Below are positions 3,550 through 20,315 of a stretch of 64,000 nucleotides of DNA, one piece after another. Numbering within the stretch: the first letter of the stretch is position 1; each line of letters opens with the position of its first letter. The notes beneath the pieces were generated by a model that did no database searches, was not told the origin of the DNA, and saw only the letters and a list, made by a program, of their open reading frames with translations. The stretch is taken from NCBI RefSeq assembly GCF_005144885.1, contig NZ_CP039690.1:558001-622000 (forward strand). Reading direction: 5' to 3'. The position numbers and the translations under genes were made by a program. Source of the stretch: Phreatobacter stygius (lineage in GTDB: Bacteria; Pseudomonadota; Alphaproteobacteria; Rhizobiales; Phreatobacteraceae).

Positions 3550-4622
<1,073 letters not shown>

Positions 4623-9787: not shown

Positions 9788-9807
9788 TTGGTCAGATTGG
9801 GATCATC

Positions 9808-10743
9808 TCATGCATCATGCCGCCTCCCAAGCCATGTCGGCACGTCGGTGACGGCAATTCCTTGCAAGGAGTTGAACGTCCGCTCCTTGTCCCAGGCGAC
9901 CCCGGTACGGCGCGCAAAAGCCAGGTGATATTTCCGCATGCCGTCCTCGGGATGCGCCGTTACCTCCGCGAGAAGGGTGTCCATGCGCCAAAGAATGCGC
10001 TCCACCGGACGGCCGAGATGCTGCTCCACCATGCCGGCGAGCTGCGCATAGGAGAACGTATCACCTGCGACGAACACCACCGTATCGTCAATGCGCGGCT
10101 CGTGCTCCAGGATGGCCACGGTCAGACGGCCAATCTCCTCCGGGATGGTGACCGTCAGCCGATGATCCCAACTGCCGAGGGCGTGAACCCGGCCCTTTTC
10201 GAGATCGACCAGACCGAAGGAAGGTTCGAACAGGAAGCTGGTGAACATGCCGGTAGACACGATGGTCCAGTGCGTGCGCGCCTGCGCGCGCAACATCTCC
10301 CGGACATCGAGCTGCTCATCCCACACGTCCTGGCCGCTGCCGCGCCCGACGGCGTCATAATCGACGCCGAACTGCCAGGGAACGTAGCGCTCGACCCCGG
10401 CCTTCAGGACAGCCGCCGTGATCTTTCGTTGCGTCCCCGCTCCTCCGACAAAACCGGCGCAGCAAATGACCACCGGGAAATCCGCGAAGATCGCAGCAAG
10501 CCCCTCTTCGGTTTCCGTCGCCAGATCGGCCCGGATGATCTCGACGCCCATCTGGCGAAGTTTCGCCGCCAGACGGTCCGGTTCGCCATGGGCTCTGTCC
10601 GCGGGGACCGGCCGCAGCAGGACATTCAACGATCCAGCGCCGGCTGAACCGCGCCGCGCTGACAGAGCCCGTATCATGGCCATGCCAAGCTCGCCCGCGC
10701 CGATAACAAGTGTGGCCTTGGGTCTGGATCTGGTGTCTGACAT
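9808..10743 (-). CDS. NmrA / isoflavone-reductase-like NAD(P)-binding protein
   Basis: A 311-residue atypical short-chain reductase. The N-terminal dinucleotide motif GAGELGMAMIRAL, the segment AAVLKAGVERYVPWQFGVDYDAVG and the NmrA-like C-terminus fit aromatic alcohol or isoflavone reductase-like proteins that bind NAD(P)H. The substrate is unknown. It is transcribed divergently from an HxlR regulator, and a near-perfect 24-base palindrome covers its ribosome-binding site and start codon edge, so repression by HxlR is likely. Confidence 0.87.
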   Translation of the reverse strand: MSDTRSRPKATLVIGAGELGMAMIRALSARRGSAGAGSLNVLLRPVPADRAHGEPDRLAAKLRQMGVEIIRADLATETEEGLAAIFADFPVVICCAGFVGGAGTQRKITAAVLKAGVERYVPWQFGVDYDAVGRGSGQDVWDEQLDVREMLRAQARTHWTIVSTGMFTSFLFEPSFGLVDLEKGRVHALGSWDHRLTVTIPEEIGRLTVAILEHEPRIDDTVVFVAGDTFSYAQLAGMVEQHLGRPVERILWRMDTLLAEVTAHPEDGMRKYHLAFARRTGVAWDKERTFNSLQGIAVTDVPTWLGRRHDA

Positions 10744-10765
10744 CAGTTTCTCCGTAGGAACTGAT
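10742..10765. promoter_or_regulatory. Near-perfect palindrome over the NmrA-type gene start (candidate HxlR operator)
   Basis: ATCAGTTTC-TCCGTA-GGAACTGAT: 9-base arms with one mismatch. It overlaps the first bases and Shine-Dalgarno region of the minus-strand NmrA-type gene and lies 55 bases upstream of the divergent HxlR gene. Confidence 0.55.
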
Positions 10766-10819
10766 CGTCAAATTGGGCGGTCGTCGCGGAACGATAAGAA
10801 GGCACACGAGTGATCCTGC

Positions 10820-11239
10820 ATGGAAATCAGCTTCGACGAGGTGATCGCGCGCTCAAAGGCCGCATGTGAGGCACTGAGCGACGAGGATGACGGCCTGAAG
10901 CGCGAGGTGCTTGCCCATGCCGGCAACCGCTGGTCGCTCGGCATCGTCTACGCGCTGGCCGTGTCGGGGACGCTTCGGCATGCCGAGCTTGCCCGCCGCC
11001 TGGATGGGGTGACGCAGCGGATGCTGACCCGGTCACTGCGTCAGCTGGAGCGTGACGGCTTGATCGTTCGGCGCGATCATCAGGAAGTGCCGCCGCGGGT
11101 CGATTATACCCTGACGGCATTAGGACGCGGGCTTCTGGCCGGCATGATGCCGCTCGGGACCTGGGTGATCGACAACGCCACCTCGTTCAGGTCCGCCCGG
11201 GATCGTTTCGATGGCCATGATTCCCGTGACAAGCGGTAA
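10820..11239 (+). CDS. HxlR-family winged-helix regulator
   Basis: A 139-residue protein whose centre is an HxlR winged helix: GNRWSLGIVYALAVSGTLRHAELARRLDGVTQRMLTRSLRQLERDGL with the typical VDYTLTALGRGL wing. Many HxlR members sense aldehydes, quinones or other electrophiles, but no sensing cysteine is evident in this one. The ATG at 10820 is the first in frame. It is divergent from the NmrA-type reductase and probably controls it through the palindrome at 10742-10765. Confidence 0.9.
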   Translation: MEISFDEVIARSKAACEALSDEDDGLKREVLAHAGNRWSLGIVYALAVSGTLRHAELARRLDGVTQRMLTRSLRQLERDGLIVRRDHQEVPPRVDYTLTALGRGLLAGMMPLGTWVIDNATSFRSARDRFDGHDSRDKR

Positions 11240-11289
11240 CGGCGCGGCCATCTCTCAATTCAAAGCGCCGCTTCGACGGCTCGGCAAAA

Positions 11290-11317
11290 GGGAACTGAGG
11301 TACGTGTCTCCGTCATC
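11290..11317 (+). repeat. REP-like dispersed motif, copy A
   Basis: GGGAACTGAGGTACGTGTC followed by TCCGTCATC, in the 105-base gap between the convergent HxlR and DUF3750 genes. It matches copies at 12305-12319 plus 15191-15206 (split by the IS3-type element) and 19213-19240 (reverse strand). The consensus is an imperfect palindrome, GAATTAGGT ... ACCGTAATTC. Confidence 0.6.
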
Positions 11318-11344
11318 CCGCTCTTGGCGCATTTGGCCCAACGC

Positions 11345-12133
11345 CTAGCCCGCGCTCATTCCAAACCGGCCCAAACCCGGCAGGTTGATCGCCGGACGGC
11401 GGAACTCCATGCCCACCACCGCGCCGAACACATTGACCTCAATCCCTTCCAGCCAACCCGCGGTGAACCCACCATAGCCGCCGAGATTGAGCCGAAAGCC
11501 GGTGCCCGACGGCGTCAGCGCCAGCCAGCGGCCATCGGCGGGATAGTCCTTGCCGATGGCCGTGGTCGGCAGCCTCAGGCCAAGCTCCGGGGCCGCCGCC
11601 ATCACATTGGCGACGAAGGTGTTGCTGTTCGGCCCCGGCCACGCCTGGTAGTCGCCCGTGCCGCGGTAGCGGTAGTTGGCGATTGCCGCCTTGATCCTCG
11701 GGATGGCGGCGGCGGCGTCAGCGCCGTCCACCGCCAACACAATCTCCGGCGCGCGGCCGAACCAGCGGCCGTCAGGCGGAAAGCCGTTGACGCGGATCGG
11801 GCCACCCCAAGCCGTATAGTCGTAGCGTTCGTAAGTCGAGGCGCCTTCCTCCTTCACCACGATCCAGCAATGGGTGGCGAAGATCCCGCGCCATCGCACC
11901 GTGCGCGCCGCGAAAACGCGAATAGCGGCCTGACGGTTGCTGGCCGCCGGCGGCAGCAGGCCAGCGCTGGACCGGTCGGCGCCGCGCCAGTCGCGCGTCG
12001 CGTCGCCCGCGAGATAGAGGCCGGCAGAGACGCCGATGGGCGCGAGGAACAGGATCAGGAAAGCGAGGCCGAGGCGCCTCATCAGGCGGGACAGGAGCGG
12101 CCGGGAAGCGGCATTGCCGTTGATTTCTGTCAT
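11345..12133 (-). CDS. DUF3750 domain-containing protein
   Basis: A 262-residue protein matching the DUF3750 family of proteobacteria. One hydrophobic N-terminal segment (about residues 22-44, LGLAFLILFLAPIGVSAGLYL) probably anchors it in the inner membrane, with the rest in the periplasm. The conserved segments FATHCWIVVKEEGA, YDYTAWGGP and GPNSNTFVANVM are visible; the Cys/His/Asn pattern resembles cysteine-peptidase-like folds, but activity is not known. No operon partner: it is convergent with HxlR and the next gene upstream is an insertion sequence. Confidence 0.87.
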   Translation of the reverse strand: MTEINGNAASRPLLSRLMRRLGLAFLILFLAPIGVSAGLYLAGDATRDWRGADRSSAGLLPPAASNRQAAIRVFAARTVRWRGIFATHCWIVVKEEGASTYERYDYTAWGGPIRVNGFPPDGRWFGRAPEIVLAVDGADAAAAIPRIKAAIANYRYRGTGDYQAWPGPNSNTFVANVMAAAPELGLRLPTTAIGKDYPADGRWLALTPSGTGFRLNLGGYGGFTAGWLEGIEVNVFGAVVGMEFRRPAINLPGLGRFGMSAG

Positions 12134-12381
12134 GGTCTTCCGGATAGAAGGGCATTGCCATCACGCCGTCGCTCCGTGTCGGAATTGAGATGGCGCGAGA
12201 GCGGCGGAACGCCGCAAGACCGAAGGCGGCTCCAGTCATCGCCACAGCCCTACGGCATTGCGAGACGCACTCACGTGATGCGCATGCACATGTGACGCAA
12301 ATAAGGGGAATGAGGTACGTGGAGTGCACCCCTTCAATGAGACAGTCGAATTTAAGTGACAGTGGGCATGGGTTGGGGAGT

Positions 12382-12666
12382 TCAGTCGGATCGAGGGATG
12401 GAAAGGTCAGCTTCGAATTCGGTTGGGGGTTTGTAGGCAAGAGCGGAATGGAGCCTCTGGCGATTATAGGTTGTCTCCAGGAACGCGCCGATATTGCGCC
12501 TGGCTTCGTCGATTGAGGAATAGGTGTTTGCGTTGACCTCCTCCTTCTTCAGGGTCTTGAAGAAGCTTTCGGCTTTGGCGTTGTCGTAGGGATTGCCGGG
12601 CGCGCTCATGCTGAGACGGACAGCATGGTCATGGAGGCGCTTGGTGTAGTCGGCGCTGGCATATTG
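12382..12666 (-). pseudogene. IS3-type orfB transposase, C-terminal part
   Basis: Encodes 94 residues from QYASADYTKRLHDH to the stop, including the third catalytic acid of the DDE triad in NPYDNAKAESFFKTLKKEE and the IS3 ending RLHSALAYKPP. It joins exactly in frame to the N-terminal part at 14124-14702 once the IS30-type element and one 3-base target copy are removed. Any start inside the IS30 end is fortuitous. Confidence 0.88.
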
Positions 12667-14123
12667 GGCGGATTCAAACGGTCGTCGCAACACTCTGAAG
12701 TTGGAGGTTGCGATGAGCATCCGAAAGCGGCGATCGGCACGGTCTGGACGAGCGCCATTACCTTCACCAGGACGGCCGCCTTTGGCGGGGCGCGATGAAC
12801 AGATTCGATTCTGGCGGGCGATCGCCGCGGGGCTGAGCAGCGAAGATGCTGCTCTCGAAGCCGGAGTGTCGCAGCCTGTAGGAACCAGATGGTTCCGAAA
12901 GGCGGGCGGTATGCCACCAGCAATGTTCAGATCCTCGGCAAAGCCGCCTGGTCGTTACCTGTCATTGGTGGAGCGTGAAGAGGTCGCACTTCTTAGGGTG
13001 CAGGGCCATTCCATGCAGGAGATCGGGCGCCGCCTGAGGCGAGCCGCCTCGACAATCTCCCGTGAACTGCGGCGCAACGCAGCCACGCGCAGCGGCGGGT
13101 TGGAGTATCGGGCGACGACTGCCCAGTGGCATGCGGATCGATCGGCCCGTCGGCCCAAACCGACCAAGCTTGCGCTCAACACAACCTTGCGCACCTATGT
13201 GGAGGAGAGACTTGCCGGCGTCGTCGTGGCTCCGAGCGGCGTTTCCGTTCCAGGTCCTGCCGTTCCGTGGAAGGGCCGCCGGCATGGCCCGCGAAAGGAT
13301 CGGCGATGGGCAAGGGCCTGGAGTCCGGAGCAGATTGCCCGGCGCTTGCCGATCGACTTCCCGGACGACAAGACGATGCGTATCAGCCACGAAGCCATCT
13401 ATCAGGCCCTCTTCGTTCAGGGCCGGGGGGTGCTGCGCCGCGAACTGACGGCCTGCTTGCGAACAGGACGCGTGTTGCGGGTGCCAAGGGCGCGCGTCCG
13501 CAGGCGAGGCAAGGGCTTTGTCTCGCCCGAGATCATGATCAGTCAACGCCCCGTCGAAGCAGCCGATCGAGCGGTGCCTGGCCACTGGGAGGGAGACCTC
13601 ATCCTCGGTCTTGGCAGCTCGGCGATCGGCACGCTGGTCGAGCGCACAACGCGCTTCACGATGCTGCTGCATCTGCCCCGCCTCGCGGGGCACGGCGAAG
13701 CTCCTCGCACGAAGAACGGGCCAGCGCTCGCGGGACACGGAGCTGAGGCCGTGCGCGATGCGATCGCGCGCACCATCATCACCTTGCCCGAAGAACTGCG
13801 TCGCTCGCTGACGTGGGATCAGGGAGCCGAAATGGCCCAGCACGATCGTCTCAAAATCGATGCGGGTGTCCAGGTCTACTTCTGCGATCCGCAAAGCCCA
13901 TGGCAGCGCGGCACCAACGAGAACACCAATGGGCTGCTGCGTCAGTACTTCCCGAAAGGCACCGACCTGAGCATCCACAGCGCCGATGAGATTGCCGCCG
14001 TGGCAGCGGTCCTCAATGCCCGACCGAGAAAGACGCTGGGCTGGAAAACGCCGGCAGAGGCGCTTGACGCGTTACTGCCATGAGTGAACACAATCGGTGT
14101 TGCGACGACCGTTTGAATCCGCC
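12667..14123 (+). mobile_element. IS30-type insertion sequence (1457 bp, complete)
   Basis: Bounded by perfect 27-base inverted repeats (12667-12693 and 14097-14123; outer bases GGCGGATTC, inner GTCGCAACAC). The 3-base target TTG is duplicated on both sides (12664-12666 and 14124-14126). It contains one transposase gene. Perfect ends, an intact gene and a clean target duplication indicate a recent insertion into the older IS3-type element. Confidence 0.93.
12701..14083 (+). CDS. IS30-family transposase
   Basis: A 460-residue transposase (an ATG at 12716, MSIRKRR, is an alternative start 5 codons in). It has an N-terminal helix-turn-helix region (LSLVEREEVALLRVQGHSMQEIGRRLRRAASTISRELRRN) and the DDE integrase core: Asp in GHWEGDLILG, Asp in LTWDQGAEM and Glu in RGTNENTNGLLRQY. 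Length and motifs fit a functional member. The first codons lie inside or just after the left inverted repeat, as usual in compact insertion sequences. Confidence 0.93.
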   Translation: MEVAMSIRKRRSARSGRAPLPSPGRPPLAGRDEQIRFWRAIAAGLSSEDAALEAGVSQPVGTRWFRKAGGMPPAMFRSSAKPPGRYLSLVEREEVALLRVQGHSMQEIGRRLRRAASTISRELRRNAATRSGGLEYRATTAQWHADRSARRPKPTKLALNTTLRTYVEERLAGVVVAPSGVSVPGPAVPWKGRRHGPRKDRRWARAWSPEQIARRLPIDFPDDKTMRISHEAIYQALFVQGRGVLRRELTACLRTGRVLRVPRARVRRRGKGFVSPEIMISQRPVEAADRAVPGHWEGDLILGLGSSAIGTLVERTTRFTMLLHLPRLAGHGEAPRTKNGPALAGHGAEAVRDAIARTIITLPEELRRSLTWDQGAEMAQHDRLKIDAGVQVYFCDPQSPWQRGTNENTNGLLRQYFPKGTDLSIHSADEIAAVAAVLNARPRKTLGWKTPAEALDALLP

Positions 14124-14702
14124 TTGGACGCCTCTGTCGGAATGATGGATCAGGCTGTCGGGCGGCGGCTTGCGGTGGCGAAGGGCCATGTCGAGGGCTG
14201 CGAGAGCCAACTCGGCGCGCAAGTGCTCATCCAGCGCCCAGCCGACGACGCGGCGGGAGAAGGCGTCGAGGATGACGGCCAGATAGACGAAGGCTTCGGC
14301 CAGGCGGACATAGGTGATATCCGCCACCCAGATCTGATCGAGCCCCGTGGGGATGAGCGATCGGATCAGGTTAGGCGCGATGCGAAAGCCATGATGGCTG
14401 TCGGTGGTTCTGGGCACGAAGGCCTTGGTGCGCAGGGCGAGCAGATTGTCCTCGCGCATGAGGCGCAGCACCCGCTTGGCGTTCACCTCGATGCCCTGGC
14501 GCTTGAGCGTCGCGGTCATGGGACGGTAGCCATAGTGCTTGTGCGCGAGGGCGATGCGATGGATGGCGTCGCGCAGATCGGCGTCGGCTCTGGCCGGGGC
14601 TTTGCGCTCGAGGAAGCGATAATAGCCGGCGCGAGACACACGGCCGAGACGGCAGAGCTGGTCGATGACGGCGGCGCCTTGCAGGGTGCTGCTCCCGGTC
14701 AT
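14124..14702 (-). pseudogene. IS3-type orfB transposase, N-terminal part
   Basis: Encodes 193 residues beginning MTGSSTLQGAAVIDQL. It contains the HTH_21-like part (AHKHYGYRPMTATLKRQGI), the first catalytic Asp in IWVADITYVRL and the second in LIHHSDRGVQ, where the frame meets the IS30-type end. The ATG at 14702 overlaps the orfA stop (ATGA), so this IS uses start/stop coupling rather than needing a frameshift. Without the C-terminal part carrying the third acid it cannot be active. Confidence 0.88.
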
Positions 14703-15130
14703 GGCTTGGATGACCGCGTAGAGCCGGGCACGGACGGTTCGGGCGTCTTGTCCGCGTCCAAGGCCTGCAAGGCACGTTGAAAAAAATCGAGGCCCGCCTG
14801 CTGCCGGCCAATGATGCGTTCGAGTTCGCCGATGCGGGCCTGTGCGTTGGCCAGGGCCTGCGCCTGATCGGGCGGAGACGGTTTGGCGGGCGCAGCCAGA
14901 GCGGCCGCCAGGCGCCGCGCGCGCAGACCAGGCTTGGGGCCGCGCTTGTGGCAGAGCCCGCTGGCCCCTTCCGCCCGCCACAACGCCCGCCAGCCATAGA
15001 GCACCTTGCGGCTGATGCCGAGGCCGCGAGCGACCGCCGCCAGCGTCTCGCCGGCTTCAAGCCGAGACATCGCCGCCTGCTTGAACGAAGGCGGGAAACT
15101 GCGTGTGGGAGTCCTGGGCTTGTCGGGCAT
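14699..15130 (-). CDS. IS3-type orfA (helix-turn-helix) protein
   Basis: A 143-residue IS3-type orfA product. The N-terminal HTH_Tnp_1-like domain is visible as SFPPSFKQAAMSRLEAGETLAAVARGLGISRKVLYGWR, followed by a basic linker and a C-terminal coiled-coil stretch (AQARIGELERIIGRQQAGLDFFQRAL) that usually allows dimerisation with the orfAB product. The gene is intact, but its partner orfB is interrupted. Confidence 0.88.
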   Translation of the reverse strand: MPDKPRTPTRSFPPSFKQAAMSRLEAGETLAAVARGLGISRKVLYGWRALWRAEGASGLCHKRGPKPGLRARRLAAALAAPAKPSPPDQAQALANAQARIGELERIIGRQQAGLDFFQRALQALDADKTPEPSVPGSTRSSKP

Positions 15131-15211
15131 TCAGCCTCCGAGCGCCCATGTCACCCTAATTCATTTGTCTCACAAATGGGGTGCAGTCCATACGTGTCAC
15201 CGTAGTTTCGC

Positions 15212-15880
15212 TCAACCGACATGACCACTCAGCATGTGATCAGCCAGGCTGTAGCAGTGGCTCGCCTGATAGGCGTTTCGACCCCGGTTCATATGTGTCA
15301 GGTTGAACGCCCTGATGGCCCGCAACGTGCGGGGCGCGCCGAGGACTTTGCTGATCGAGGAGACGCCGCGGACCTTGATGCCGAAAATGTCCTCGCCGCG
15401 GGGAAACACATAGCTGACGTCTTCCGGCGTCGTGACGCAGCGCTCGAGGAAAGCTTCGTCCACTCGGCCCCGATCGAGCGAATGGTCGGTGGTGAAATCG
15501 GAAAGATGCACCAGGAATAGCGCGCGGATGCCCTCGCCATCCGCATAGAGCGAGAAAAGCTCCATCCAGCTCGCATTGACGCGAACGAGCGCCTTGCCCG
15601 GGGTCGACGGCAGACAGGAAACCGACCAGTAATACCGCTCGGTCCGGCGCGGAATCGGGATGCAGTGGTGGCCGTAGTCCCTGATGATATCAAGGACCTG
15701 CTGCGCCTGCGGTCGGCGCAGCAGCTTCTCGAACCGCGTGACGTATTTGAAGCGCAGTTCGAGGGATTCCGAGCGCTCGTCGGCGTCGGACAGGATCGTC
15801 TGGCCCTGCATCCACTCGCGCTGCTGCTGAAGATCCAGGAATCGGCGCAGACCGGTGAGGCTGACCATTCCCGCCATCAT
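15212..15880 (-). CDS. Protein of unknown function coupled to the luciferase-like gene
   Basis: A 222-residue soluble protein with no family recognised. No signal peptide or membrane segment is seen. It has a Glu/Gln/Arg-rich helical N-terminus (RRFLDLQQQREWMQGQ), then a mixed region (RRTERYYWSVSCLPS, ALFLVHLSDFTTDHS). The ATG at 15880 overlaps the stop of the luciferase-like gene (ATGATGG), so the two should be translated together, although a GTG at 15886 is possible. Its stop lies only 21 bases from the IS3-type end, so the original downstream context has been altered. Confidence 0.7.
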   Translation of the reverse strand: MMAGMVSLTGLRRFLDLQQQREWMQGQTILSDADERSESLELRFKYVTRFEKLLRRPQAQQVLDIIRDYGHHCIPIPRRTERYYWSVSCLPSTPGKALVRVNASWMELFSLYADGEGIRALFLVHLSDFTTDHSLDRGRVDEAFLERCVTTPEDVSYVFPRGEDIFGIKVRGVSSISKVLGAPRTLRAIRAFNLTHMNRGRNAYQASHCYSLADHMLSGHVG

Positions 15881-16893
15881 CGCCACCCGAGGGCGGGGGC
15901 GACATGTTTCAGAATGGCCTCGATCACATGGGCACTATATGCGACGCCGAGCTGGTTTGGCACGGTGAGCAGCAGTGTGTCGGCCTCGGCTATGGCCTCG
16001 TCTGCCTTCAATTGCGTGATCAGCCGGTCGGGCTCCGCAGTATAGGAGCGCCCGAAAACGGCGCGCATATTGTCGATGATGCCGATCTGGTCGCTGGTAT
16101 CGCCGCGCCCGAAATAGGCGTGGTCGCGATCGTCCATGAGCGCGAAGATCGATCGGGACACCGACACGCGAGGCTCCCAATCGTGGCCGGCCTCTTTCCA
16201 CGCCTGCCTAAACAGGCGAATCTGCGTGGCCTGCTGAACGTGAAACGGCTCGCCAGTCTCATCTGCCTTAAGGGTCGAACTTTGCAGGTTCATGCCCTGC
16301 TGGGCCGCCCAGAGCGCCGTGGCGTTCGACGCGGACCCCCACCAGATGCGCCGGCGCAAACCCTCCGAATGGGGTTCGAGTCGCAGCAATCCAGGCGGAT
16401 TGGGAAACATGGGGCGCGGATTGGGCCGGGCGAAGCCTTCTCCCTTCAACAGATCAAGAAAGACTTCCGCGTGGCGTCGCCCCATGTCGGCATCGCTCTG
16501 TCCCTCTTCCGGGACATGGCCGAAATAGCGCCAGCCGTCGATCACCTGTTCTGGCGAGCCGCGGCTGATGCCGAGCTGGAGCCGGCCATTGCTGATCAGG
16601 TCGGCGGCGCCCGCATCCTCGACCATGTAGAACGGGTTCTCGTAGCGCATGTCGATCACGCCGGTGCCGATCTCGATCCGGTTCGTCTTCGCACCAACGG
16701 CTGCGAGCAAGGGAAAGGGTGAGGCAAGCTGCTGCGCGAAATGATGGACCCTGAAATAGGCGCCGTCCGCGCCGAGTTCCTCGGCCGCCACGGCAAGCTC
16801 GATTGACTGCAGCAGCGTGTCCCTTGCCGAGCGTGTCGCCGACTGGAGCGAGGGCGACCAGTGCCCGAAAGAGAGAAATCCTATTGTCTTCAT
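15877..16893 (-). CDS. Luciferase-like (LLM class) flavin-dependent oxidoreductase
   Basis: A 338-residue member of the bacterial luciferase-like monooxygenase family, which uses reduced flavin from a separate reductase. The N-terminus (IGFLSFGHWSP), AEELGADGAYFRVHHFA, the strand IEIGTGVIDMRYENPFYMVEDAGAADLISNGRLQLGISRGSPEQ and the later RIWWGSASNATALWAAQQGMN are typical of the TIM-barrel. The substrate is unknown. It is the first gene of a two-gene operon with the unknown protein at 15212-15880. No oxidoreductase partner gene is adjacent. Confidence 0.9.
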   Translation of the reverse strand: MKTIGFLSFGHWSPSLQSATRSARDTLLQSIELAVAAEELGADGAYFRVHHFAQQLASPFPLLAAVGAKTNRIEIGTGVIDMRYENPFYMVEDAGAADLISNGRLQLGISRGSPEQVIDGWRYFGHVPEEGQSDADMGRRHAEVFLDLLKGEGFARPNPRPMFPNPPGLLRLEPHSEGLRRRIWWGSASNATALWAAQQGMNLQSSTLKADETGEPFHVQQATQIRLFRQAWKEAGHDWEPRVSVSRSIFALMDDRDHAYFGRGDTSDQIGIIDNMRAVFGRSYTAEPDRLITQLKADEAIAEADTLLLTVPNQLGVAYSAHVIEAILKHVAPALGWR

Positions 16894-17196
16894 CTGATTC
16901 CTGGGCGCCGGTGCATGGCGCGATATTCGTGTCCCGCAATCCCATATATAGCTCGGCTGAACGGGCTTGATGCAATCGCGGCGTCGCCTCTCGGCGCGCG
17001 CTTTCGGTTGCGCCGGAACCTTCCCACAGGCGCGGCTCCACCATTTGGCTTCAATCGCGAACGCAAGGAAGCGGCGGTGGCCAGTACGCGAGACGCCCCA
17101 TTGGCGCGCAGCTCCGTGGTCGCCTGTTCGAGCTCCGCCGCCGCCCGCCCTTCGGCGGTCGCGAGGCCAAGTCGGGGCTCAAATGCCATTGCGGTC
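16894..17196. other. Region without a recognised gene
   Basis: About 300 bases upstream of the luciferase-like gene. A minus-strand frame (to 17210) could encode a short Ala-rich peptide but shows no ribosome site or family resemblance. A 10-base direct repeat, CCATTGCGGT, occurs at 17187-17196 and 17197-17206, next to the half copy of the REP-like motif. Confidence 0.4.
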
Positions 17197-17305
17197 CATT
17201 GCGGTGACACGTCGAGGCGGTGGCGGGCGCCCCGCCGACCGTACCGTCATCAAGCGCGGCAGGGTCGTCGTGCGCAACGGCGAGTTGACCGAGCCGGTGG
17301 CATGA
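17197..17305 (+). pseudogene. 3' remnant of an amidohydrolase gene joined to half a REP-like motif
   Basis: From 17213 the sequence matches the last 92 bases of the intact amidohydrolase gene (to 9787) with a handful of substitutions and one missing base; it still reads RPADRTVIKRGRVVVRNGE and then LTEPVA plus a stop (intact gene: RPADRTVIKRGKVVVRNGE, LTEPVA). Homology stops abruptly at 17212, where CATTGCGGTGACACGT matches one half of the REP-like motif. The rest of the gene is missing. Nothing further is recognised from 17306 to 17532. Confidence 0.8.
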
Positions 17306-17532
17306 ACCGCGACTGATCGATCACCCGATCAGGCGCACCACCGCAAGACCCGGCACGCAACGGTGGACGGCAAGCGGTGCGGTACTGTCTAATGCGCGAA
17401 ATGTGTGGGGGCGAAATGAGCGTCGAAGAGACTGGCCTTTGGCCATGGCGCGACTGGTCTGGTGAACCTGTCCGGCCCGTGCCGTCATGGGCATCCCGTC
17501 CGGCGAACACGTCTCTTTAGAGGAATGGGCCA

Positions 17533-17970
17533 ATGGATGGGCTTGTCATCCTGCTTCTCGTCATTCTGGTCGGGATCTATTTCATTCCGACCATCGTGGC
17601 GTTCTCCCGCGAGCATGACTATCGCTGGGTCATCTGCGCCCTCAACATTGTCGGCGGCTGGACCTTCGTCCTTTGGGGCGTGGCATTGGTCTGGGCGGTC
17701 TATCCCACCAACAAGACCTTCGCCGATCCACTGATCGGATCGGCAACCGGCCTCGGCATACGCAATACGGGCGATGTGCTCGGGGAAGCCGATTTCGGCC
17801 GCCAGCGTGGCTACAGCGCTGCGCAATTGGCCAGCCCGGCGGTCGTAGCGCCGCCGCGCGAACGGCAAGGTTCCGTCATCGATGCCTTGGAACGGCTGCA
17901 AAAGCTACGCGACAGCGGTGTCCTGACCCAGGACGAGTTCGAGATTCAGAAGCGCGAAGTCTTGAAATGA
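17533..17970 (+). CDS. Superinfection-immunity-like membrane protein with SHOCT domain
   Basis: A 145-residue protein. The N-terminus has two membrane segments (about residues 3-24 and 33-58) with the form of the superinfection immunity protein family (ALNIVGGWTFVLWGVALVWAVYP), first known from phage T4 Imm and widespread in bacteria. A linker follows and then a C-terminal SHOCT motif (IDALERLQKLRDSGVLTQDEFEIQKREVL), a short helical hairpin common at the end of bacterial proteins. Its role may be phage-related or simply structural; this is not settled. A GAGG site lies upstream. It is convergent with the HNH gene. Confidence 0.82.
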   Translation: MDGLVILLLVILVGIYFIPTIVAFSREHDYRWVICALNIVGGWTFVLWGVALVWAVYPTNKTFADPLIGSATGLGIRNTGDVLGEADFGRQRGYSAAQLASPAVVAPPRERQGSVIDALERLQKLRDSGVLTQDEFEIQKREVLK

Positions 17971-18050
17971 CGCGGGCTGATCGAGCGCTTTTGTCGCTGG
18001 GGCGATTGCGCTCAGCTTTGGGGGATTGAAGGACGCGTCACCGCAATTCC

Positions 18051-18950
18051 TCACTGCTTGAAGCAGTGCTCGCGATGCCATTGCAGGAAATGCGGATGCG
18101 GCTGATCCGAAACCCGCCGCGGTTTCAGCGCGCGGCCGCTTTTGTTCAGAATTCCGCGCACGCCGTCGGGATCGTTGACCTGCCGGGAGACCAGGATCTC
18201 CAGGTCGTCGGCGAAGCTGATCAACCCGCGGTCGAACATCCAATGCGCCGTGCCGGACAGAGCCATCCCGTTGCTGACGATGTCAGGCCCGTTCGCCTCG
18301 ACCGGCCGGATATGCGCCGCCGCGACCTCCGCTCGGCCGCCGCCATTGATCAGCTTCAGCCCGGTGACGGCGCAGCGTTCATCATAGGCGCGCAACACGA
18401 CCCGGCGGAAAACGCGGTCCCGGACGATACGCGAGGTCAAGGAACTGACCCGGTCGCGGGCCTGCTCGAACTGGAAAGGCGCCTGGTCCTCCTGAAGCGC
18501 CAAGGCAGAGCCGGCATCGTCGACGCGCGGCAGCAGCGGGGCGCTCTGATCCAACCCCAGCTCGATGATGCGATTGAAGTCGGCGGGCGAAACCGGACGG
18601 ACCGCCCATTGCCCACGCGGCGAAACTCGTCCTCGTTCGTCGAGCACGCCTCGCTCGACTACGCCGTCTGTGCCTCTGAACGGAACCGGATTGGCAAAGT
18701 CGAGATAGCTGCCGGGCTCGATGACAGCGATATACATGCCGGGCGTAGCCGGATCGGCAATGACCTGCTGGACCCGGGCTATGGCGAAATAGCCGCGCGT
18801 GCCGCGAACCTTGCCAGGCTCGTAATAGACGATCCAATCGCCGACACAGGCCCGAACGCGGCCGAGATACTGGCGTGGAAACTGGTATCGCTCAGCGGGG
18901 CTGTCATCGTAGATCGAATCTGAGCGGTGGATGAAGACCCCGAATCCCAT
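18051..18950 (-). CDS. PUA/EVE-like domain fused to an HNH endonuclease
   Basis: A 299-residue predicted nuclease. Residues 1-130 (GFGVFIHRSDSIYDDSPAE, VGDWIVYYEPGKVRGTRGYF, MYIAVIEPGSYLDF) have the strand pattern of a PUA/EVE-like fold, known elsewhere as a reader of modified bases. Residues 190-285 form an HNH_2-type nuclease: CAVTG, AAHIRPVEANG with the catalytic His, and ALSGTAHWMFDRGL. The start at 18950 is chosen because homology begins at MGFGVFIHRSD; no strong ribosome site precedes it. A role in cutting modified foreign DNA is an inference from the domain pair. It is stand-alone, convergent with the immunity-like gene. Confidence 0.8.
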   Translation of the reverse strand: MGFGVFIHRSDSIYDDSPAERYQFPRQYLGRVRACVGDWIVYYEPGKVRGTRGYFAIARVQQVIADPATPGMYIAVIEPGSYLDFANPVPFRGTDGVVERGVLDERGRVSPRGQWAVRPVSPADFNRIIELGLDQSAPLLPRVDDAGSALALQEDQAPFQFEQARDRVSSLTSRIVRDRVFRRVVLRAYDERCAVTGLKLINGGGRAEVAAAHIRPVEANGPDIVSNGMALSGTAHWMFDRGLISFADDLEILVSRQVNDPDGVRGILNKSGRALKPRRVSDQPHPHFLQWHREHCFKQ

Positions 18951-19129
18951 GCAGTTTCTATAGCGTGAGGATGCTCGACACTCACCTTGCCGTTTCGGTG
19001 AGCCTGCCATGCCTGACCCAGGGTCTGCCATGCGGACAACCCGGACATGGAACAGGGTCGTCTTCAATCCCGGTGAATTTGCCTTCCAGCGTGCCAGAGC
19101 CGAAGATTTCGCCAGGGAGGCGCCTCACG

Positions 19130-19212
19130 ATGACCATCACGATTACCGCCTTTGAACGCTCACCCGATGGCGGCAAGGGACTGGCGCGGGATACGCGCGT
19201 TCGCTGGGCGCT
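19130..19212 (+). pseudogene. 5' remnant of a glutathione S-transferase-like gene
   Basis: An ATG at 19130 with a GGGAGG site starts the sequence MTITITAFERSPDGGKGLAR then DTRVRWAL, which matches the usual N-terminus of a rhizobial glutathione S-transferase family. The expected continuation (EEVGQPYDVRL-like) is absent: after codon 28 the sequence runs directly into the REP-like motif at 19213, and the frame ends at 19285. The gene has lost its body. Confidence 0.7.
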
Positions 19213-19240
19213 GAATTACGGTGACACGTACCTAATTCCC
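19213..19240 (-). repeat. REP-like dispersed motif, copy C
   Basis: Read on the minus strand: GGGAATTAGGTACGTGTC then ACCGTAATTC, an imperfect palindrome. It begins exactly where the glutathione S-transferase homology stops and ends at the stop codon of the minus-strand DUF6653 gene. It is the cleanest copy of the motif in the window. Confidence 0.65.
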
Positions 19241-19737
19241 TATTTTTCACGTCTCACGTCAGGCCCCCATTCTCTCCCCTCATAAAGCCTCCCCAACCTA
19301 TCAATCCGCCACAGCTGTGCCATCACGACCAAACTCGCCCCGAACACCGTCGGCCAGATCTCCAGCATGATCAGCCCCCATCCGAGCAGCCCCGCGCCGA
19401 CCACGCCCGGCACGGCCAGCCAGCGGAAGGCGAGGCGGTCGCCCGGCGGCACCAGGTCCGGGCGTTCGAGCCAGAGCTTCTCGCCATAGATGCCCTTGGC
19501 GGCCCAGGAGCGCGGCGTGTCGACGGGGGCGAAGACATGCGGGTTGACGACGAGCCAGAGGATCACCAGCGCGATGGGGATGAGCGCCCACCAGCCGAGC
19601 CAGGTCCGGCTCCAGACGGCGAGGATCATCGCCGGGATGGCGGCGAAGCGGGTGTAGACGCTCCAGGGATTGGCGTGGCGGCGCCAGGCTTCGTCGGTCA
19701 TGCCGAAGGCTTTGGCGATCACGGCGAGACGTCGCAT
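19240..19737 (-). CDS. DUF6653 family membrane protein
   Basis: A 165-residue inner-membrane protein with four hydrophobic segments (about residues 30-48, 49-66, 103-122 and 124-142). The segments MTDEAWRRHANPWSVYTR, NPHVFAPVDTPRSWAAKGIYGEKLWLER and RLYEGREW match a small family of unknown function (DUF6653). The start at 19737 has a GAGGAA site 12 bases upstream; the internal Met at residue 13 is an alternative. The stop codon touches the REP-like motif copy C, so the extreme C-terminus may have been remade by the insertion of that motif. Confidence 0.78.
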   Translation of the reverse strand: MRRLAVIAKAFGMTDEAWRRHANPWSVYTRFAAIPAMILAVWSRTWLGWWALIPIALVILWLVVNPHVFAPVDTPRSWAAKGIYGEKLWLERPDLVPPGDRLAFRWLAVPGVVGAGLLGWGLIMLEIWPTVFGASLVVMAQLWRIDRLGRLYEGREWGPDVRREK

Positions 19738-20315
19738 GCGTGGTCTTTCCTCTTCGGATTGAGATCAGATCAGATCGGAGTGCCGCATCAAGGATAGCCG
19801 TCCTTCGAGGGTCGCTTCGCAAGCCTCGCACGTCGTCTTGGCCGGGCTTGTCCCGGCCATCCACGCATAGGGTGGGCGAAGGAAAGTCATGGATGGCCGG
19901 GACAAGGCCGGCCAAGACGGTGAGGGCAAAGCCTCCTCGCTTTCCCTCCTCGTCCCCACGCCAAGACCTGCGCTTTTTTGCGCGCGAGGTGCCGTCAGCG
20001 GCGAGCCTCGAAGGACTGCTATCCTTGATGCCGTTCGCTTCAATTCGAACCGTCGCCCCGCCGGCGCCACTCGCCCCATGCATGCATGCGTCAATCCAGC
20101 GCTGCCTCGCTGGCCATTCTTGCCCTCGAACGCTTCAGAACAGTCTTGCGGCACCCGTCAATCTGCACAAGGATTGATCATTATGCACCAGCGTCCGGCA
20201 TGGGGCCGGGCGTCCGATCCGCCGAAGCGATGAAGGCCTGCGCAGATGGGCCGCTTCGGCAAGCTGGCATGTCACTTGCCAGCGATGATCCCCGGGCATC
20301 AGGGAGAAAAAACGC
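19738..20315. other. Intergenic region made largely of nested palindromic repeats
   Basis: This 578-base gap separates the DUF6653 gene from the ABC operon. It contains the nested repeat at 19786-20030. The remaining 285 bases before the ABC substrate-binding gene hold no recognised gene, and the operon promoter presumably lies there, but no clear -35/-10 pair was identified. Confidence 0.6.
19786..20030. repeat. Composite intergenic palindromic repeat
   Basis: Outer 25-base inverted arms (19786-19810 and 20006-20030; 24 of 25 match; outer bases CATCAAGGATAGC) enclose an inner palindrome at 19834-19919 with arms of the type CGTCTTGGCCGG ... CCGGCCAAGACG. The inner unit is related to the repeats at 26091-26171 and 55642-55721. 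It may fold into a long hairpin in RNA. Such units are common between alphaproteobacterial genes. Confidence 0.75.

Follow-up and report, generated by a model that had tools for sequence, protein, structure and literature searches.

A dispersed repeat at gene break points in Phreatobacter stygius, very probably a terminal inverted repeat belonging to a TIRYT-type Y1 transposase

A short motif recurs at the edges of truncated genes, and around an IS3-family element, in a 64,000-nucleotide stretch of the Phreatobacter stygius genome (the window; bases 558001-622000 of NZ_CP039690.1, a single-contig genome of 7.35 Mb labeled G000). The locus thus raises the question of what the motif is and whether it has taken part in breaking the genes beside it. 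The initial annotation called it REP-like (repetitive extragenic palindrome) and proposed a non-autonomous mobile element or a recombination hot spot. Our analysis indicates that the motif is very probably the terminal inverted repeat (TIR) family of a TIRYT-type Y1 (HUH) transposase related to the REP-associated tyrosine transposases (RAYTs), and that the window carries solo copies of this TIR. A role of these TIRs in local deletions is suggestive but unproven.

The consensus of the repeated motif is GAATTACGGTGACACGTACCTAATTCCCTATTTT. Within the window, GGGAATTAGGTACGTGTC with up to three mismatches matched three times; 100 shuffles averaged 0.03 matches. The genome was searched with a covariance model based on eight copies; 150 of the 348 first-look candidates were scored, so that weak copies may be missed. 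The model returned eight clear copies at E < 2e-7 and three more at E 0.014-0.14, in addition to a match at E 2.06 that is probably due to chance. The total is about 15, comprising the eight clear copies and about seven broken or weak ones, which include two interrupted by IS3 (at 570.3 and 531.4 kb) and two poor copies in the window; the many copies that would support a mobile REP-like family are lacking. Five of the roughly 15 fall within 8 kb of the window. In the alignment of the eight copies, the conserved core begins with ATTAC, where two copies vary by one base, and the inner tail is conserved and resembles CCCTATTTT.

The genome has a single detected match to PF01797 (Y1/HUH), which lies outside the window and sits between inward-facing copies of the motif (6071467, plus strand, and 6072189-6072223, minus strand). 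Both parts of what the initial annotation had to say on this point are thereby answered: the window itself carries no such gene, as claimed, and the search it suggested in the rest of the genome, for a RAYT gene bounded by the motif, is positive. The flanking repeats are inverted and are not of the GTAG type. The protein matches PF01797 with 38.8 bits (cut-off 23) and NF047646, the REP-associated tyrosine transposase model, with 76.5 bits, just below the cut-off of 80. A profile of the transposase and 11 relatives had TnpA_REP (4er8) as its best PDB match with an E value of 1.1e-9, and the HxH motif and Tyr118 are invariant across the 12 aligned proteins. The near-identical multicopy element that would mark an insertion sequence of the IS200/IS605 type is not seen in this genome, with its single PF01797 match. 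Relatives of the transposase occur in 26 of 72,556 plasmid records, the best among those listed being 38% identical.

The pairing of gene and repeat extends beyond this genome. A scan of the genome collection yielded 65 loci with a related transposase gene, and ATTACGGTGACA-like inverted repeats flank the same kind of gene in several genera. By eye, a AATTACGGTGACA-like motif was seen near the gene in 15 of 39 inspected loci, some of which end near the gene, and eight of the 15 carry GGTGACA on both sides. In addition, inverted repeats of any sequence were scored against 20 shuffles in 34 loci (35 of the 65 relatives were given, and one was too short). They beat all 20 shuffles in 29 of the 34, of which one, L043, passes only through a GC-rich 11-mer. 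More distant relatives carry GGGGACAC/G and GGGGACA-type cores, which fit the pattern GGGGWSAS.

Homology of whole units could be followed in Methylocapsa sp. S129. Loci L029 and L030 align over 780 bp at 86% and have unrelated adjoining flanks; the shared block starts 1 base outside the TTAC of the left TIR and ends 3 bases outside the TTAC of the right TIR. A third locus, L064, aligns with L029 over 777 bp (91%) and with L030 over 786 bp (85%). As L029 and L064 share other DNA further away, this pair may include a larger duplication. The fourth copy, L058, is more diverged. It is because the motif is paired with the transposase here and in relatives, and because homology of the unit ends 1-3 bp from the repeats in Methylocapsa, that we read the motif as a TIR. 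Inward-facing dimers of 83-122 bp, as expected of non-autonomous units, were found once in G000 (5952580+/5952667-, both weak) and twice in the same-genus draft genome G006; L058 also has one inward-facing pair.

Within the genus, the distribution of motif and gene is patchy. Among 12 same-genus genomes, with at most 150 candidates scored in each, the motif was found in two (10 and 11 matches, E up to 0.1) and the gene in one. An extra TTACG within 20 nt outside TTACGGTGACA-like sites (at most one mismatch) was present at 19 of 54 sites in the relatives' loci, where shuffles averaged 0.64, and at 1 of 21 sites in the window's genus; the 54 include a few sites, and the 21 at least three (IS3 ends), that are not TIRs. 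The extra TTACG in the relatives is a truncated box just outside the motif (L028, L031-L037, L048, L058, L064, and L078). Other repeats were met in the same material. A dispersed repeat, CCTTCTCCC..GGGAGAAGG, at L125:2935-2984 is matched in 10 of 12 same-genus genomes (rows counted by eye), and a transposase open reading frame (ORF) at L121:11251-12450, which we take to be of IS256 type, belongs to a stretch for which the genome has 13 other long matches of 90-91%.

The palindrome first described for the motif proved weak on both strands. Shuffled sequences folded at least as well in 15 of 200 cases for one strand and in 33 of 200 for the other, and the TIRs of relatives (four folded) were no better than their own shuffles. 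Likewise, covariation did not support the hairpin of the motif, with 266 of 500 shuffles reaching the paired percentage and 124 of 500 reaching the covariation score. Slid controls paired less (24-51% versus 78%), a contrast that says little because the structure had been taken from the consensus. No GTAG (or GTGG) foot is present in the alignment of eight copies. With GTAG absent and the hairpin weak, a GTAG-type REP was rejected. A strong palindrome is thus lacking, and "TIR of a TIRYT/TIRtron" describes the motif better than REP-like.

The motif sites named in the initial annotation all exist; the site at 19213-19240 is exact, and that at 17197-17212 is a half copy. Table 1 lists these together with a degenerate copy that is newly added. 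Six of 28 compared positions differ between the copy at 11284-11318 and that at 19213-19240.

Table 1 Coordinates of the TIR copies, neighboring genes, and insertion elements (window positions, except for the last line, which gives genome positions)
Feature	Position	Strand	Remarks
HxlR gene	10820-11239	+	ORF and Pfam; convergent neighbor of the TIR at 11284..11318
TIR copy	11284..11318	-	Covariance-model E 9.3e-8; between convergent genes
DUF3750 gene	11345-12133	-	ORF and Pfam; other convergent neighbor of the TIR at 11284..11318
Inner half of IS3-split TIR copy	12305..12319	-	Ends with TACG
IS3-family element	12320..15190		Ends TGGAGTGCACCCC / TGGACTGCACCCC; inserted in TIR; 2871 bp including IS30-type insertion
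IS30-type ORF inside IS3 element	12701-14083
Outer half of IS3-split TIR copy	15191..15209	-	Starts with TACG; G006 homology begins at 15208, the outer edge
Broken outer half of TIR	17197..17212	+	Abuts amidohydrolase 3' remnant (17213-17305)
Degenerate TIR copy	18015..18049	-	Weight-matrix score 19.1 versus 62.4 for the best copy
Glutathione S-transferase 5' remnant	19130..19212	+	Cut at TIR outer edge
Full TIR copy	19213..19247	+	E 8.7e-11; same copy in G006 (C32:12025-12059)
Complete unit (TIR, 222-aa transposase, TIR)	6,071,467-6,072,223		757 bp end to end

The inward-facing pair formed by the half copy at 17197 and the degenerate copy ending at 18049 spans 853 bp, near the length of a unit, and holds the amidohydrolase remnant and a small ORF but no transposase. 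A small protein with Imm_superinfect (PF14373) and SHOCT domains is encoded at 17533-17970, between these two copies.

The motif had also been proposed as the target of the IS3 element, and this is borne out: TACG stands on both sides of the element as a duplication within the TIR core, and the two halves (12305-12319 and 15191-15209) rebuild a copy. The element encodes proteins with the Pfam domains rve, rve_3, HTH_21, HTH_Tnp_1, and HTH_38, from which we take the families at 12320-15190 to be IS3 and IS30. Exact IS3 ends mark five loci in G000. The element at 570320 is the one in the TIR core at TACG. The relic at 531424 is oppositely oriented and sits no more than 5 bp from that same TACG in a different TIR. 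Next to the transposase unit, the element at 6067332-6071452 has a TIR on either side and starts 7 bp past the tail of the first. The other two, at 4541796 (with a GTCG duplication) and 5950419, are away from the motif. The copies at 12320-15190 and G000:C1:4541796-4544666 are both 2871 bp long and contain the same IS30-type element, seemingly in opposite orientation within IS3. The right end of IS3 (window 15149-15163) contains GAATTAGGGTGACAT, a near-match to the outer half of the TIR. In both genomes, the inner tail of a TIR is followed after 6-7 bp by the start of an IS3 end (G006:C32:31748-31760, locus L118, and G000:C1:6067325-6067331).

The break points were located by comparison with G006, in which the region has the same order on contig C32. 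There, the glutathione S-transferase (GST) gene is intact and its product matches GST_N. Window positions 19021-19213 are 83% identical to the start of that gene; the 28-codon remnant itself has no Pfam match. Homology to the GST gene ends at 19213, where homology to the TIR and the DUF6653 gene begins, and the corresponding points in G006, 27367 and 12059, are 15.3 kb apart. Since the TIR stands at the same place in both genomes, the lineage of the window has, on the simplest reading, lost 15.3 kb in a deletion that has the outer edge of the TIR as one of its end points; this agrees with the edge first assigned to the GST remnant. The second break, at 15208, is the outer edge of the IS3-split copy, and the G006 contig examined lacks window 9794-15207. 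The third, at 17213, is the broken end of the half copy at the amidohydrolase remnant. In G006, a full motif is followed by 6 bp, a 13-bp IS3 end, and then the remnant, which places the break about 20 bp from the TIR, away from its edge; IS3 rather than the motif may therefore have made that edge. The claim that the motif marks the edge of the amidohydrolase remnant thus holds for the window, where the remnant abuts a broken half copy, but not for G006, where it abuts an IS3 end and the motif lies 6 bp beyond. Within the 40 kb of G006 C32 that was compared, nothing matched window 17320-19020. We also considered whether a short ORF that stops at the 6067290 TIR is another truncated gene and dropped this claim, as the 28-codon ORF has no Pfam match.

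Of nine ends of synteny, three fall within 5 bp of a TIR edge, one of them at a broken half copy. Random placements equaled this in 1 of 20,000 trials at 5 bp, in none at 2 bp, and in nine at 10 bp. The nine ends, all from 9793 to 20074, were hand-picked from the G006 match table; those at 3562, 6349, 8528, and 25977 were dropped, together with short matches to repeats and secondary hits in duplicated stretches. Six TIR intervals were used (two are the halves of the split copy and one is the broken half copy), and placement was over all DNA, including genic DNA. As the region had been chosen for this very feature, the figure is descriptive.

How might a TIR come to stand at the end of a deletion? 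The solo copies would have been spread by this 222-aa enzyme or by a former relative of it. For TnpA_REP of Escherichia coli and others, the part of PMC8266576 drawn on here reports experiments showing recognition of single-stranded REP and cleavage beside it. By analogy, the enzyme may nick one strand of a single-stranded TIR near the outer TTAC; the conserved block and the Methylocapsa unit both end within 1-3 bp of TTAC. A nicked end that is mis-joined could delete DNA from the TIR onward, for example the rest of the GST gene, whose junction is the one that can be polarized. We consider a deletion made by the enzyme at the TIR rather unlikely. The fuller proposal, in which a single-copy TIRYT cuts solo TIRs near the outer TTAC and rejoins them to nearby DNA so that TIRs become fixed origins of one-sided deletions, is put forward with the same degree of doubt.

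Several observations weigh against the motif being a mobile TIR or a source of deletions. Five of the 34 scored relatives have no significant flanking repeat. Some neighboring copies in G006 are tandem or outward-facing (C32 12025-/12113- and C8 30843-/31816+), and this genome, an 80-contig draft with a listed contamination of 6, has 11 motif matches yet no PF01797 match. Of the three breaks, one alone can be polarized, and at that junction a short GCGC(T/C)GG likeness is shared by the two G006 parents, so that ordinary illegitimate recombination could have made it. Moreover, the precise empty sites sought for solo copies were found in none of the 12 same-genus genomes around five loci (457957, 3969009, G006 C71:46330, 5952-5957 kb, and the transposase locus). 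The comparison with G006 does support the idea that the motif marks break points. The TIR at 3969009 has flanks that match separate G006 contigs, one match ending 25 bp before the repeat and the other starting 55 bp after it, a pattern consistent with a break near the TIR, short of proof. Over the 5952-5957 kb stretch, homology to G006 ends 68 bp before a TIR, and at the transposase unit it starts only 92 bp past the right TIR.

One alternative to cleavage by the enzyme is that IS3 or other insertion sequences landed in or near passive, leftover TIRs and that adjacent deletions followed. We regard this as possible, if doubtful. In its favor are the five IS3 loci of G000, of which one is in a TIR core, one is a relic within 5 bp of the same point of another TIR, and one is an element between two TIRs, as well as the 13-bp IS3 end abutting the amidohydrolase remnant in G006. 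The latter genome also has, roughly 10 bp into the TIR next to the GST break, a string with a loose, unscored likeness to an IS3 end. However, no exact IS3 end occurs within about 70 bp around the GST junction in the window or in its two G006 parents, and the GST break falls at the outer edge of the TIR itself.

A second alternative, also possible but tentative, is that the TIR is a mere recombination hot spot, at which replication stalling or short homology leads to illegitimate deletions with no role for a transposase. The GCGC-type likeness at the GST junction, the lack of a PF01797 match in G006, and a weak hairpin that may form are in keeping with it, but the break lies within about 3 bp of TTAC, near the end of the mobile unit in a relative and away from the center of the hairpin. 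That the motif is instead a regulatory or terminator sequence of the adjoining genes with no mobile history, as the 11284 copy between convergent genes and the TAG stop that the inner tail of the 19213 copy gives to the DUF6653 ORF might suggest, is highly improbable in view of the ATTACGGTGACA-like repeats beside this kind of transposase in several genera and of the absence, from 10 of the 12 congeners, of any covariance-model hit at E <= 0.1.

If cleavage of solo TIRs by the enzyme does occur, deletions at these sites would remodel accessory regions even without transposition. The end of the gap in the window coincides with the end used by the mobile unit in a relative. The system is a small, clean case, with one enzyme, about 15 targets, and a sister genome that has targets but in which no enzyme was found. 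It makes testable what a low-copy HUH transposase does to the genome of its host.

REPtrons and REPINs with their RAYTs are known in E. coli and Pseudomonas. They share with the present system a single transposase gene, inverted flanking repeats, dimers, and dispersed copies, whereas here the GTAG foot is absent, the hairpin is weak, and about 15 copies stand in place of a high copy number. A full-text search, which covers neither figures nor supplements, found ATTACGGTGACA in no paper. The insertion of IS3 into the TIR resembles known REP-targeting elements. IS3-family elements that target REPs include IS1397 and ISKpn1, according to the portion of Tobes and Pareja (2006, PMC1525189) used here; an IS3-family element within a dispersed repeat is common to these cases, with the difference that two of the five IS3 loci here are at the motif, or three counting the one between copies.

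The transposase lies near subclass 2.1 of TnpA_Y1, a placement made from motifs rather than a tree, with the HUH and Y motifs compared by eye. In the parts of Quentin et al. (2018, PMC6006769) relied on here, this subclass corresponds to group 1 of Bertels, and its members are probably TIRYTs, needing confirmation. The protein has NHVH and YVSLNP, and the subclass table gives NHVH and YIELNP or Y[IV]HLNP. The median length is 238 aa in the subclass versus 222 aa here, and copy number is low in both. No REP-like sequences were found beside the subclass genes according to those parts of the paper, whereas clear inverted repeats with a weak palindrome are present here.

Comparing the motif with TIRtrons, it becomes apparent that several of their features recur. 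As set out in the sections of Di Nocera et al. (2013, PMC3733652) consulted, a TIRYT is a Y1 transposase whose gene stands between inverted repeats that are unrelated to the GTAG REPs, and TIR families are moderately abundant in some hosts, occurring singly, as dimers, or in groups. The Y1 transposase, the inverted flanks not of GTAG type, and the solo and dimeric TIRs elsewhere in the genome are all found here. The sequence GGGGWSAS is common to some TIRs, not all, in those sections, and the TIR of the window, GGTGACAC, differs from it at one base (7 of 8). Section 16 of that paper describes neither deletion ends nor IS3 in TIRs. A TIRYT-type transposase with TIR units is a kind of system already described, and the TIR family of P. 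stygius is very probably a further member of it.

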